Shown here: piece after piece, positions 53,820-58,437 of the stretch
Layout of the letters: every line of letters begins with the position of its first letter
How positions within the stretch are numbered: the stretch's first letter is position 1
NCBI RefSeq assembly: GCF_008630635.1
Contig: NZ_CP043869.1
Span: 1,736,001-1,800,000 of the forward strand
DNA from: Neptunomonas concharum
GTDB lineage: Bacteria; Pseudomonadota; Gammaproteobacteria; Pseudomonadales; Balneatricaceae
Direction of reading: 5' to 3'
DNA length: 64,000 nt
Program-made: the position numbers and the translations under genes
The notes under the pieces: model-generated
Database searches by the model: none
Told to the model about the DNA's origin: nothing
Seen by the model: the letters and a program-made list of their open reading frames with translations, nothing else

Positions 53820-54566
53820 CTAATCAATCAACGTATCAATGAGATCAATCATAAACTCGGTTGACTCTTCATCCATCAGCTCCCAGCCTCCCAGCTGCAT
53901 CGCCTCGAGTACTTTCTGCCCTTTTGGGTCATCTTTCATCTCAAGCAAGCAAGTACTGAGCTTTGGAATTAAATGCTGAATACGAGGGCCAGCTAAAAGG
54001 GCGTGATGAATTACATCAATTTGGCTTTCAACCAAGACACGCATTTGATTTTTGGTTAGACCAGATAAATCTTCAAATGCTTCTTTCAGGAAAAACCCAA
54101 TATCTGCACTACCGTTTAACAAACTCTTTGCGACAAGGACATAGCTATGAACATGAGAGATTGTTACATTGGATGCGTCTAAATCAGCCGGCTCAATCAT
54201 GATCATGCCCATCATATGCACATCAGGATCATGCGTTGTAGCCACACGAATACCCGGCGGGAGCGTCTCTATTGACTGGTATTGAGACCCATCAGGAACA
54301 GCAATGATGGCCTCATCAGAATTACCGGTAGGTCTAACAACTGCTTTGAAACCCTTTTCCCTAACCAGCATGGCTGCATCGTAAGGGTTGGCATAAATTA
54401 GATCAATTTTGTCGAGTTGGATATCCCGCCGCTGCGCCTCAAAATCATCATACAGCTCCAGATGCATAGGCATCTCCAGTTGACGCTGTAACCATGTATT
54501 GAAAATAAACCAGCCTGATAAATGGTCAGGAGAGAAGTCAGGGCTTACCGATAAAGTACAGGTCAT
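53820..54566 (-). CDS. PhnD-type ligand-binding protein without export signal
   Basis: 248 residues. The fold matches phosphate/phosphonate-type periplasmic binding proteins (PF12974): opening strand LSVSPDFSPDHLSGWFIFNT, IDLIYANPYDAAMLVREKGF and ADIGFFLKEAFEDLSGL. It starts MTCTLSV, directly at the first beta-strand, so there is no signal peptide, and GGGAGCC supports this start. It should therefore sit in the cytoplasm. No ABC transporter is nearby. It is the last gene of a six-gene operon, three bases after the PAS gene. An intracellular ligand sensor is the inference. Confidence 0.82.
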   Translation of the reverse strand: MTCTLSVSPDFSPDHLSGWFIFNTWLQRQLEMPMHLELYDDFEAQRRDIQLDKIDLIYANPYDAAMLVREKGFKAVVRPTGNSDEAIIAVPDGSQYQSIETLPPGIRVATTHDPDVHMMGMIMIEPADLDASNVTISHVHSYVLVAKSLLNGSADIGFFLKEAFEDLSGLTKNQMRVLVESQIDVIHHALLAGPRIQHLIPKLSTCLLEMKDDPKGQKVLEAMQLGGWELMDEESTEFMIDLIDTLID

Positions 54567-54569
54567 ATT

Positions 54570-55013
54570 CTAGGCTCCCTGATCAGCAAGCATCGTTTTA
54601 TAGAGTGCGGTACACTCGTCCACTTTACTTCGAGAAGGCTTCCGCCTCACTGAGGTATATCCCATTAATTGGCCATTACGAATATTAGGGATCACTGTTG
54701 CTTTGACCCAGTAATAAGCACCATCTTTACGCAAGTTTTTAACGTAACCATGCCACTTCTTACCCGACTGAATAGTATCCCAAAGATCCTTAAAGGCGGC
54801 AGATGGCATATCTGGGTGCCTCAAAATAGAATGGTTTGTCCCAATCAGCTCTTCAAGCATATACCCAGACATATCAATAAACGCTTGATTTGCGTGAGTA
54901 ATTATACCGGTAGTATCTGTCCGGGAAACAATAAGCTTCCCGTCAGGATAAGGCACTTCTTGATCAACGATTACCGCCTCTCTCGAAGTACCGTCAAAAT
55001 ATTTGATAAACAT
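54570..55013 (-). CDS. Aer-like stand-alone PAS protein
   Basis: 147 residues; nearly all is a PAS domain of the Aer energy-taxis type. The start EVPYPDGKLIVSRTDTTGII and THANQAFIDMSGYMLEELIG are followed by NHSILRHPDMPSAAFKDLWD, KKWHGYVKNLRKDGAYYWVK, all Aer hallmarks that form an FAD pocket. No membrane helix, HAMP or chemotaxis signalling domain follows, so its signal must pass through protein contacts. It lies between the roadblock and PhnD-type genes, with 12- and three-base spacers. It could sense redox or oxygen for the operon. Confidence 0.87.
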   Translation of the reverse strand: MFIKYFDGTSREAVIVDQEVPYPDGKLIVSRTDTTGIITHANQAFIDMSGYMLEELIGTNHSILRHPDMPSAAFKDLWDTIQSGKKWHGYVKNLRKDGAYYWVKATVIPNIRNGQLMGYTSVRRKPSRSKVDECTALYKTMLADQGA

Positions 55014-55025
55014 AAGCGTTGCTTC

Positions 55026-55388
55026 TTAGAGCAGCTTACCAATCGCTTCAGCCGCTCGTTTTACGTCCAGAAAAATCAATCCTAAACGTGCGTTGGGTTT
55101 TGCCACAACGGTTAACACTGAATCATGATTCGCGTGAGTCATCAAAATGTAACCATCGACACCTTTAACCAGCACCTGTTCGAGCTCGCCACGAGCCAGC
55201 TCCTGGGCTGTTCTTTCTCCAAGAGAAAGCATTGCTGCGCTCATTGCGCCCACCCTGTCTTCATCCATGCTAGAAGGCAATAAAGCCTCGATCATCAAGC
55301 CATCGGTTGAGATGACGGCTGAGGCTTCAATCTCAGCTGAAGTACCATTCAGGTCGCTAAGAATTGACCCCATCATTTCAGAACGCAT
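55026..55388 (-). CDS. Roadblock/LC7-domain protein (MglB-like fold)
   Basis: 120 residues, a single roadblock/LC7 domain: ASAVISTDGLMIEALLPSSM, VGAMSAAMLSLGERTAQELA, LEQVLVKGVDGYILMTHANH and VLTVVAKPNARLGLIFLDV. This is the family of MglB, which normally regulates a Ras-like GTPase, and of similar dimer scaffolds. No GTPase gene is in the operon. GGAG precedes the ATG. The next protein upstream has a C-terminal half of similar pattern, suggesting a heterodimer. Confidence 0.88.
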   Translation of the reverse strand: MRSEMMGSILSDLNGTSAEIEASAVISTDGLMIEALLPSSMDEDRVGAMSAAMLSLGERTAQELARGELEQVLVKGVDGYILMTHANHDSVLTVVAKPNARLGLIFLDVKRAAEAIGKLL

Positions 55389-55431
55389 AGCAACTTCACT
55401 CCATTATAGTAATATTTGTCCGATCTATGGA

Positions 55432-56061
55432 TCAGTAATCTAAGTAGCGACTCGCAAGTGCACTTAGTAGTTCAACAAATTGGTGTTGGTTTAAGTTTGG
55501 TTGTTCGTGGATCACTAATGCGAACATTTGTGATCCAACGTGAATTATCCATGTGCCTAATAAGCTATTCCCTACCGGGTCAAGCAACCCCCAGGATTGT
55601 CCCATCAACTCTAAATCACGATTAAGAAGTTGGTGATGGCGGTGATGCATACTGATCAGATCAGCCGCAAGAGCCGCCAGCGAATCCGCATGATCCTGAT
55701 CAAATCCTGACGAGCCTAAGCAAAAGCCTTGATCATCCCCCAATACCACTTTCCCCGTTGTGGATAATACAGGCAAAACCTTTGAAAGAATCGTTTCTAA
55801 GCTGCCAGAAACAGGCTCTGCAGGGTTATCACTTAAGACGAGAAAACGGCGGGCAATCAGTTTTTGAAACAGAGCGTCTGCCATATCTTTATCTAAGTCA
55901 GCCAACTCCGCAAAGACTTCTGAGGAGTAAGCAATCGGTGCATCGCTACTCATCAATTGCAGTAATAAAGCACGAGCATCGTCCGACTGAGAGTTCACTG
56001 TCGCATAGTAAGCACCGCTGGGAGTAACTTGCAGGTAACGTATTTTGCTTTCCGAATTCAC
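55432..56061 (-). CDS. Roadblock-like protein with N-terminal winged-helix-like half
   Basis: 209 residues, starting at a GTG. Residues ~1-85 look like a small winged helix (ARALLLQLMSSDAPIAYSSE; DALFQKLIARRFLVLSDNP). Residues ~95-209 repeat the roadblock pattern: LSTTGKVVLGDDQGFCLGSS, ADSLAALAADLISMHHRHHQ, and WIIHVGSQMFALVIHE. The assignment of the second half is from pattern, not strong identity. It follows the repeat protein by 26 bases and precedes the clear roadblock gene by 43. A dimer partner of that protein is likely. Confidence 0.7.
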   Translation of the reverse strand: MNSESKIRYLQVTPSGAYYATVNSQSDDARALLLQLMSSDAPIAYSSEVFAELADLDKDMADALFQKLIARRFLVLSDNPAEPVSGSLETILSKVLPVLSTTGKVVLGDDQGFCLGSSGFDQDHADSLAALAADLISMHHRHHQLLNRDLELMGQSWGLLDPVGNSLLGTWIIHVGSQMFALVIHEQPNLNQHQFVELLSALASRYLDY

Positions 56062-56087
56062 TATATATCTCTCGCTATCCGTAACCG

Positions 56088-57926
56088 CTAGTAGGCAAAT
56101 AACTGGGCTGTGGTAGCCGCCGCCATAACCCCAAATACAAAGCGCTGAGGAATGTTTAACTCACTAATAACCTGAAAAGCCGTCATTGGACGGGTTTGCC
56201 ATAAATTGATTACAGCGTGAACTTCAGGAATAACGATATCGCGAATGCAATCTGGGGAGCGTGTTAATCTCCGAGTTCGGGAAGGATCGTCTGCTGGTAA
56301 GACCCTCCCCTGAACAGTCCATAAGCCCGCTAACCATAAAAGATCTTCGGCAGTGATGACCCGCTCTGAGAAGCCAAGCCCTTCCTGCAGATCATCCTCT
56401 ATCACATCGCCCGGCTTCATTGATAATTCGCCCAAGCCAAAACGGCTTGTCATAACAGTGTAGAGAACCTCTTCAGATAAATTCGTTACAAAACAATCAG
56501 TCCAAGGTAAATATTCAAGTCTTAAATGAAGTCCATCAATAGCTAAAGAGGTACGTTGGCTACGTCCTTTCTCAACTATTTTCTGAATCCAAGGGAGCAA
56601 CATCCCCTCTAAATTAATCAATAACCGGCGCCGGTCCGCTTCAATGGTCCAATCCAGTTCAGGAAGGTTACCAAAAACAGACACCATATTGGTCGCCTTT
56701 TGTGGCGTAGGCTTACTAATTAAAGCTTCATTATACTGGGCTTGTTTCTTTTCTATGGCTGGCTTTAAGGCCGGAACTATCTGGTCAAATACTTCAGGGG
56801 TAACAACTGGTTTAGATTGAGAAGGGCTGCTTTCAGCAAGCTTCGCGACTACCTGCGCCCTGACATTAGAGACTCGGGCACCTAGGTGAGGGCCGCCACC
56901 ATGGCCAATACTGTCAATAGAGGCAGTAGAACGAACGCCGCTTGCTCCTGTTGGATCAGGCGTATTAACGCCCTCCTTTTTAAGCAATGCTTTTTTCTTC
57001 GCTAATAACAGAGCACGTTTTTTAGCGGCCAGCTGAAGGTCTGCCACATTAGATTTGGGTTTTTGTTCGGCTTCTAAACGTTCTGCTTCTAAACGTTCTG
57101 CTTCTAGACGTTCTGCTTCTAGACGTTCTGCTTCTAGACGTTCTGCTTCTAGACGTTCTGCTTCTAGACGTTCTGCTTCTAGACGTTCTGCTTCTAGACG
57201 TTCTGCTTCTAAACGTTCTGCTTCTAAACGTTCTGCTTCTAAACGTTCTGCTTCTAAACGTTCTGCTTCTAAACGTTCTGCTTCTAAACGTTCTGCTTCT
57301 AAACGTTCTGCTTCTAAACGTTCTGCTTCTAAACGTTCTGCTTCTAAACGTTCTGCTTCTAAACGTTCTGCTTCTAAACGTTCTGCTTCTAAACGTTCTG
57401 CTTCTAAACGTTCTGCTTCTAAACGTTCTGCTTCTAAACGTTCTGCTTCTAAACGTTCTGCTTCTAGACGTTCTGCTTCTAAACGTTCTGCTTCTAAACG
57501 TTCTGCTTCTAGACGTTCTGCTTCTAAACGTTCGGCTTCTGCCTGCTCTGCAAGATAACGATCAAGATCAGAAGTTTCGGGGGCGATAGAAGCCTGAATT
57601 TGTTTTTGTAGCGCTTCAATACCTTCTGCAAGCGCATTTGCAGTGAACGGTTTTATAACAGTAATACAGTTATTCCATTCAAGCTCCGATACTGAGATCA
57701 ACAGAGCTGGCAGGCCAACCTTCTCTTCAAGGTAACTCTTTAAAGTAGATTTTGAGCTGGGCTGGTCGGCATTAAAAATAACCCAATCAGCGCGTGATGG
57801 CGAATCCACAATTTTGTATTGTTTGCCTACACGGTGAGATACGAAAAAATACTCCAGAGTATGCTTAACCGCACCTTCAAAGCCGATAAAGTGCACTCGA
57901 GAATGGTTAGAGGTACGACGATCCAT
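56088..57926 (-). CDS. Pseudo-receiver protein with 31 tandem RLEAE pentapeptides
   Basis: 612 residues. Residues ~1-115 fold like a receiver ([53 protein letters not shown]), but asparagine in VIFNADQP takes the phospho-acceptor place and the acidic pair is absent. Residues ~129-287 are 31 copies of RLEAE, predicted as a long charged single helix of about 23 nm. A lysine-rich helix and a low-complexity linker follow. Residues ~420-612 are a conserved-looking globular end ([40 protein letters not shown]; ending in a helix pair). The function is unknown. It looks like a scaffold linking the sensory parts of the operon. Confidence 0.8.
57066..57540 (-). repeat. 15-bp tandem repeat array (31 units)
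   Basis: The coding-strand unit is GAAGCAGAACGTTTA. Units are identical except at one base: 22 have leucine codon TTA and nine CTA. Seven CTA units are adjacent near the 3' end of the gene array and two are scattered. The unit length keeps the frame whatever the copy number. Confidence 0.95.
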
Positions 57927-57927
57927 G

Positions 57928-58437
57928 TTATAGACCTTCCTTTTTACTAGAAACCGCTGCAGCTGGAAGTGAACGTCCGTTAATCAGGACAGAGTGCCTC
58001 ACATCCAAGTTCGCTATCTGGTTAATGCGCTTACTCGCAATAATCTCACTCAGATTCTCGCTCAGCTCAGCCCCCAATAAAGGCTCAGCTTGCCGAATAA
58101 GCCTAAGGCTCAGTGCATTGCCCTTATAGCGCAACATAATCATCAAATCGATTAGCGCACCCAGTACCTTAGATTTTGAGCCATGAATCATTGCAAGATA
58201 AAATCGTCTCACATGATATTTCAAATCCTGAGGGTGTGTCGCAACAAGACGCGTCAGATTAGTCAAAGCATATTTAGGTACACTGCCCTGATAAATCAGC
58301 GACTTTTGCTCGCTGGTCTCAAAAGCGGCTTGAATACGATCAGCAAGATCGCCTTCCAGCTCTTCATTAAGATCCCAGTCTGAGATTGCCATCCAGATCT
58401 GCGAGTTCACTTTACTGTCTTCCTTCAAGTGCATCAT
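57928..58437 (-). CDS. Helical hypothetical protein (169 aa), first gene of the roadblock operon
   Basis: The protein is almost wholly helical ([60 protein letters not shown]). It has no signal peptide or membrane segment. I do not recognise the family. The next gene starts one base after its stop, so translation is coupled. It is transcribed away from acnB. The likely role is as a partner or adaptor of the operon's other proteins. Confidence 0.7.

Follow-up and report, generated by a model that had tools for sequence, protein, structure and literature searches.

A six-gene roadblock operon of Neptunomonas concharum, apparently a GTPase-less derivative of Group 3 MglA/MglB systems

The minus strand of a 64,000-nucleotide stretch of the Neptunomonas concharum genome (hereafter the window; contig NZ_CP043869.1, positions 1,736,001 to 1,800,000) carries a compact six-gene operon at window positions 53820–58437. 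It encodes a helical protein (g1), a receiver-domain scaffold (g2), two roadblock-type proteins (g3 or RobB, g4 or RobA), an Aer-type PAS protein (g5) and a cytoplasmic PhnD-like binding protein (g6). In bacteria, roadblock proteins have been treated mainly as regulators of small GTPases; none of the six open reading frames (ORFs) encodes a GTPase, as an annotation made from the bare sequence (the first-pass annotation) had stated. The operon is real, conserved and under selection. With slightly better than even confidence, we read it as a GTPase-less derivative of the Group 3 MglA/MglB system, in which a roadblock platform would receive a paired sensory input and direct its output to the cell pole or to type IV pili. 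New here are the GTPase-less state and the Aer-PAS/PhnD pair, on a kind of locus that has been described.

A RobA scan of 84,980 species genomes yielded 357 relatives, the best 80 of which were kept as the nearest loci. They include Neptunomonas, Amphritea, Marinobacterium, Neptuniibacter, Nitrincola, Pontibacterium and Motiliproteus, then Thiothrix, Leucothrix and others. The genes of g2, RobB and RobA follow one another in the same order and on the same strand in all 80, with no exception, which is beyond chance, and a g1 homologue is present in 78; the co-occurrence that the first-pass annotation had proposed to search for is thus strong. On a wider scale, RobA was found in 64 of 370 genomes sampled evenly from the class, and 31 of 40 stretches fetched there around RobA matches, weak ones included, hold g2, RobB and RobA. 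In the window's own family, 29 of 60 genomes carry RobA.

In 28 of the 80 nearest loci, an additional ORF of about 180 residues lies between g2 and RobB; it encodes a Ras-like GTPase (PF03029, E 3.8e-12), and the other 52 loci are without it. The nearby MglA-like GTPase that had been suggested as a target for a search is found in these relatives. It has a P-loop; among 63 GTPase ORFs of related loci, the GTPGQ motif is kept in 62 and DAR in 56, and the G4 motif is, from the alignments, mostly TRxD instead of NKxD. Group 3 MglA proteins of beta/gamma-Proteobacteria are described by the same traits, GTPGQ, a G4 often without lysine, and DAR (PMC4316618, Wuichet & Sogaard-Andersen 2014); the GTPases of the related loci possess them, and the window operon has no such protein. 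Because the motifs of the relatives' GTPases and the plan of g2 both match, the window operon would be a GTPase-less descendant of Group 3, and its missing GTPase would be a derived loss since the relatives carry the gene between g2 and RobB.

The history of this loss was traced on a tree of RobA plus RobB, midpoint-rooted and without support values, which covers 111 non-identical loci (52 with and 59 without the GTPase; 17 loci with missing or low-scoring RobA or RobB were excluded). Fifty-seven of the GTPase-less loci fall into a single clade nested among the GTPase-bearing ones. Parsimony counts three changes with the GTPase at the root, which puts one loss where the window's family begins and two elsewhere; on this tree, the order g1-g2-GTPase-RobB-RobA-(PAS-PhnD) is shown as the older state. 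Two neighbours changed as well. A g1 protein of 200 or more residues is encoded in 55 of 56 loci with the GTPase and in 1 of 53 loci without it, and an amphipathic C-terminal tail of g2 (RGLFSRLLKRLLG-like), typical of GTPase-bearing loci, is missing in the window's GTPase-less clade; the regular expression used for this tail missed 11 of 58 GTPase-bearing loci, where tails of the same kind are seen by eye, and also L173. As judged from these sequences, the GTPase is shown to have gone in the window's clade together with the g2 tail and roughly one third of g1 at its C-terminus. Among the 31 class loci that hold g2, RobB and RobA, the GTPase is in the locus in 29; the exceptions, L153 and L173, look like separate losses because both keep the g2 tail. 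Two further arrangements were seen among GTPase-bearing loci: L171 (8044-9546) and L177 (4633-6222) encode a fusion of the operon GTPase with a Ser/Thr protein kinase domain, and a gene read by eye as a divergent bactofilin (L064:1698-2048 and relatives, 23 loci), for which NCBIfam gave no match, lies upstream of the operon.

RobA (55026–55388; 120 residues) is an MglB/CvnB-type roadblock protein that matches Robl_LC7 at E 1.2e-15 and whose profile finds, in the PDB, cvnB5 (E 6.8e-11) and MglB (E 0.001). It is 78–98% identical to its counterparts in 15 aligned relatives. An Asp-Gly pair, predicted to face MglA in MglB Groups 2–5 (PMC4316618), stands at positions 29-30, with G30 fully and D29 nearly invariant over 16 sequences; of the one or two MglB with such a pair that mark a Group 3 locus, RobA is a clear representative and RobB a weak one. 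RobB (55432–56061; 209 residues, GTG start) combines an N-terminal extension with a divergent roadblock-like C-terminus. Its Robl_LC7 match (E 4e-4) lies under Pfam's cut-off, and 16 of 21 homologues match the same model at E ≤ 0.1. Aligning RobA with the RobB C-terminus by hhalign gave a probability of 2.1, which is no support on a scale where unrelated pairs reached 0.1–0.8 and self-comparison 100. At E ≤ 0.001, the two proteins are the only Robl_LC7 matches in the 3.56-Mb single-contig genome. Elsewhere, a RobA-like domain is fused to an AAA/STAND-like ATPase (L183:5768-7372).

RobA is under extreme purifying selection in genomes where no GTPase of this family was found. Over seven within-genus pairs of such genomes, the ratio of nonsynonymous to synonymous substitution rates (dN/dS) is 0.000–0.017, with no pair saturated; for the other operon genes many values are saturated in dS and the remainder span 0.009–0.17. 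The medians for RobA in GTPase-bearing Thiothrix and Leucothrix are 0.020 and 0.010, respectively. The MglB-type protein is the most constrained gene of the operon set.

The scaffold protein g2 (56088–57926; 612 residues) has a homologue in 80 of the 80 nearest loci; in L042 the gene is divided between two ORFs. It is made up of an N-terminal receiver-fold domain, a variable helical linker and a mostly helical C-terminal domain. In the predicted structure of the Neptunomonas marina relative, the N-terminus adopts a receiver fold (Z 12.2, root-mean-square deviation 2.5 over 105 aligned residues), which supports the pseudo-receiver scaffold of the first-pass annotation. The position of the phospho-accepting Asp is occupied by Asn in this relative and in the window (FNADQP). 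Over the g2 proteins aligned, Asp stands there in 10 of 12 from loci with the GTPase and in 6 of 18 from loci without it. The C-terminal domain is modelled with a high predicted local distance difference test score (pLDDT), and the structure match lists reach residues 5-113 only. In the window, the linker is encoded by a 15-bp tandem array (57065–57540; 31.7 copies, 98% matches) that gives 31 AERLE units; such an (ERLEA)n helix would be about 23 nm long if fully helical. The linker sequence differs among Neptunomonas, and N. marina carries (EQA)n there. An in-frame minisatellite in one species and (EQA)n in another suggest fast linker turnover, as far as these sequences tell. The long helix proposed as a spacer is no more than this variable linker, in whose place relatives have other sequence. 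GAF and histidine kinase domains were also seen on a g2-like protein (L184:9865-12462).

The first gene, g1 (57928–58437), encodes an all-helical, TPR-like protein of 169 residues. Its model consists of helical hairpins (mean pLDDT 83.9), and its best fold match, at Z 10.1, is not above the level that helical repeats reach without kinship; a longer homologue (L176) matches TPR models at E 1.2e-7. Pfam gave no match at E ≤ 1 for g1 or g2.

The last two genes provide the putative sensors. The g5 protein (54570–55013; 147 residues, PAS_3 E 2.5e-16) aligns over 123 residues with the aerotaxis receptor PAS domain 8dik, which we take to be that of Escherichia coli Aer, at E 3e-37 and with an RHPDMP stretch common to both, in agreement with the Aer-type PAS assigned earlier; g5 is predicted to bind flavin adenine dinucleotide (FAD) and to sense the redox or energy state. 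Its NCBIfam kinase matches extend over the PAS part only. The g6 protein (53820–54566; PF12974, E 3.9e-40) has a PhnD-like binding-protein fold without a hydrophobic N-terminus; the signal peptide and transporter genes that go with a PhnD-type periplasmic protein are missing, and Pfam finds no transporter match among the other five proteins. Since no PDB sequence matches g6 at E 0.01, no ligand is inferred for it. PAS is present in 62 and PhnD in 60 of the 80 nearest loci: 60 have both, 18 neither, and two PAS alone, one of them at a contig end. The PAS gene directly follows RobA in 62 of 62 loci, with a gap of −41 to 163 bases, and one genome (G607) has a second RobA copy with PAS and PhnD alone (L234, L235), the set g1-g2-RobB-RobA lying elsewhere. 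Because PAS always follows RobA and because of this split arrangement, the pair would report through RobA. No operon uniting roadblock, Aer-PAS and PhnD genes appears among the papers listed in searches of the open-licence literature.

The six genes are separated, from g1 to g6, by 1, 26, 43, 12 and 3 bases, as measured from the ORF ends, and g6 is followed by an intrinsic-terminator-like hairpin (53810–53785; an 11-pair stem and TTTTTT); strand, spacers and the single terminator are as first annotated. Over 6.5 kb, 10 terminator-like sites were found versus 6.3 expected, and this hairpin is distinguished by its position and strength alone. The promoter scan remained at chance level (10 found, 10.6 expected). 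By hydropathy, the six proteins are free of stretches that resemble a transmembrane segment or a signal peptide, in line with the earlier view of a cytoplasmic set without a membrane receptor, and Pfam finds no kinase match among them, and no CvnA-type histidine kinase in particular. In the window's lineage, the operon is flanked by housekeeping genes.

Outside the window, its own genome encodes three unlinked matches to the operon GTPase, at E 1e-62, 1e-59 and 1e-56 (L138:7522-10413, L139:6663-8309 and L140:7498-8821). These GTPases are 329–343 residues long, have a C-terminal domain and an intact P-loop, and each of their genes precedes that of a small partner; one of the three loci continues with a sensor-HAMP membrane protein that lacks an output domain. 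In a set of 17 such trans GTPases, GTPGQ is kept in 15 and DAR in 12. The Robl_LC7 search of the genome does not match them, and Robl_LC7 is found in 1 of 13 trans partner proteins. The word roadblock is for these proteins a mere Pfam hint, as hhalign of their C-terminal domain and of the partners with RobA and RobB gave no support (probabilities 0.1–1.4). A strong GTPase match (E below or about 1e-40) occurs in 19 of 29 RobA-bearing versus 0 of 31 RobA-less genomes of the family (p 1e-8), or in 6 of 8 RobA-bearing versus 0 of 8 other genera; two matches at E 0.007–0.008, one of them in a RobA-less genome, were not counted.

In the other 10 of the 29 RobA-bearing family genomes, no match to the operon GTPase family was found with all candidates scored. 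By their presumptive names, they are Marinobacterium sediminicola, M. iners, M. weihaiense and one M. litorale, three Amphritea, two Nitrincola and one Motiliproteus, and all ten have the complete six-gene operon (L236, L238, L240–L247). A second GTPase profile, run on 14 GTPase-less genomes, gave one weak fragment only (E 0.08). A Roc-family search of 12 GTPase-less genomes, which in the window's genome ranks the three trans GTPases first, returned only frames of at least 300 residues, one being an 873-residue Roc protein (G579). The GTPase search of the class scored about nine candidates per genome, and absences there are less certain than in the family.

As for the output, a gene for a FimV/HubP-type polar landmark protein lies downstream in 22 of the 80 nearest loci, all GTPase-bearing, and in 16 of the 22 it overlaps the operon gene before it or lies within 10 bases of that gene; five such proteins, from four loci, match TIGR03504 at E 2e-12 to 5e-8. 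The pilus gene pilM scores over its cut-off in 29 of 29 family genomes with RobA and in 22 of the 31 without it (p 0.002). In a class subset, it reaches E ≤ 1e-20 in 38 of 40 RobA-bearing genomes and in 28 of 40 others (p 0.006). In Snodgrassella, mutation of a Group 3 orphan mglB changed soft-agar flares, an effect that its authors attributed to type IV pili (PMC11112851). Because of the FimV/HubP coupling in relatives, the modest pilM association and the Group 3 literature, control of the cell pole or type IV pili is by analogy the most likely output.

Taken together, RobA and RobB would make up a cytoplasmic platform in the form of a roadblock (hetero)dimer. The receiver, linker and C-terminal domain of g2 and the helical repeats of g1 would hold this platform. 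The Aer-type PAS protein, with its predicted FAD and redox or energy response, and the PhnD-like domain, which may take a small anionic ligand, would act as a paired input on the adjoining RobA, and the output would go to pole-localised machinery, type IV pili first. In the window's genome, the switch may come in trans from the three unlinked GTPases, which belong to the same family; in genomes where no small GTPase was found, the platform would act directly. Carried to its full extent, this proposal describes a G-protein system that has lost its G protein: in several genera, a roadblock platform of MglB type would work in cells devoid of small GTPases and relay redox and ligand input directly to the pole or pili by protein contacts alone, a possibility that we entertain tentatively and hold to be rather doubtful.

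Some observations weigh against parts of this proposal. The roadblock nature of RobB is weak at the level of sequence. Nine of the 40 class loci are without a RobB match (five with g2, GTPase and RobA, one with g2 and RobA, three with RobA alone), and L144, L145 and L147 are rearranged or partial sets with no adjacent GTPase. The five FimV/HubP-type proteins scanned stay under the cut-off of the FimV core model, and their coupling is limited to GTPase-bearing relatives, mainly Thiotrichales, and does not extend to the window's lineage; the association with pilM is a modest one, for which phylogeny and genome size are confounders. The presumed link between trans GTPases and operon rests on co-occurrence in one family and is likewise confounded by phylogeny, and the C-terminal domain of these GTPases matches Robl_LC7 in 3 of 15 (best E 0.006), with hhalign at 1.4 or less. 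In addition, a winged helix in g2 was not reproduced by the structure comparison, which spans residues 5-113.

Should RobA and RobB simply serve the three unlinked GTPases of the genome, the operon would belong to an ordinary system of GTPase and GTPase-activating protein and would not be truly GTPase-less. The trans proteins are of the same family and have an intact P-loop and GTPGQ/DAR-type motifs, strong matches in the family sample are confined to RobA-bearing genomes, and RobA keeps the Asp-Gly pair predicted to face MglA (PMC4316618). We nevertheless regard this as the less likely reading, as the ten RobA-bearing family genomes without a GTPase-family match all have the complete operon, the Roc-family search in GTPase-less genomes yields long frames only, and each trans GTPase adjoins a small partner gene of its own. 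A transcription-regulator role, suggested for Group 3 systems in PMC4316618, would instead make g2 a receiver and winged-helix regulator whose activity is set by the roadblock, PAS and PhnD proteins. The receiver fold, the confidently modelled, mostly helical C-terminus and the winged-helix-like C-terminus predicted by Phyre2 for the conserved Group 3 protein (PMC4316618) are consistent with it, but the C-terminus of g2 was not matched by the comparison over residues 5-113, the phospho-acceptor position is other than Asp in 12 of the 18 aligned GTPase-less g2 proteins, and the long hypervariable linker was judged unusual for a response regulator; we consider this role unlikely.

The shortening of g1 and g2 in the GTPase-less clade, the absence of RobA from 31 of the 60 family genomes and single exceptions (g2 broken in L042, no PAS-PhnD pair in L053 and L092, no PhnD in L016) could also be taken as signs of a relic, its genes kept by linkage alone after the GTPase was lost. 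The gene order is maintained in all 80 nearest loci, however, and simple decay is rejected because dN/dS is far below 1 wherever it is computable, so that a relic is very improbable. Read as a GTPase-less derivative of Group 3, the operon belongs to a natural series of GTPase loss at operon scale, in which the same neighbours have their GTPase in cis, have it in trans, or lie in a genome where none was found. With such a series, the role of a roadblock protein that has no GTPase can be tested directly in marine bacteria that grow in culture, on an operon that ties two plausible inputs, redox and a small ligand, to a roadblock platform.

Of the known systems, Aer shares with g5 the PAS domain and its RHPDMP stretch, but g5 is a stand-alone soluble protein with no HAMP or chemotaxis signalling domain. 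The Myxococcus MglA/MglB/MglC/RomY module also contains roadblock proteins in complex with one another, MglC binding MglB through a surface other than the one used by MglA, a receiver-domain partner, RomR, and a TPR effector, SgmX, that steers type IV pili; a Group 1 GTPase is central there, and PAS and PhnD partners are unmentioned in the passages compared (PMC7949163, PMC9481161, PMC7519303). Actinobacterial conservons (CvnA-D) resemble the operon in their MglB-type roadblock protein, to which RobA matches as cvnB5, and in the GTPGQ/DAR-type GTPase of its relatives, and some of them have lost the GTPase (PMC4316618); the window operon differs in having cytoplasmic PAS and PhnD-like proteins as sensors in place of the histidine kinase CvnA. 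In the passages of PMC4316618 compared, loss of mglA is mentioned for conservons and not for Group 3, and 328 orphan MglB homologues are counted, none characterised at that time; MglC and the Snodgrassella orphan MglB have since been studied, both in cells keeping an MglA (PMC7949163, PMC11112851).

The closest likeness is to Group 3 itself, whose neighbourhood comprises one or two MglB plus a protein in which a variable linker joins a receiver-like N-terminus to a winged-helix-like C-terminus (PMC4316618). The g2 protein has this N-terminus and linker and stands beside MglB homologues, and in relatives a GTPGQ/DAR GTPase occupies the same place; the window operon has no GTPase gene beside its MglB-type genes and adds g1, the Aer-type PAS and the PhnD-like protein, which the passages compared do not mention. 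The first-pass annotation knew of no described system of such composition, a view that the match of the core to Group 3 loci contradicts in part: a genomic system with these families has been described (PMC4316618), though not as a characterised complex. In its present form, the window locus falls outside the Group 3 MglA systems, but by its sequences it descends from one.

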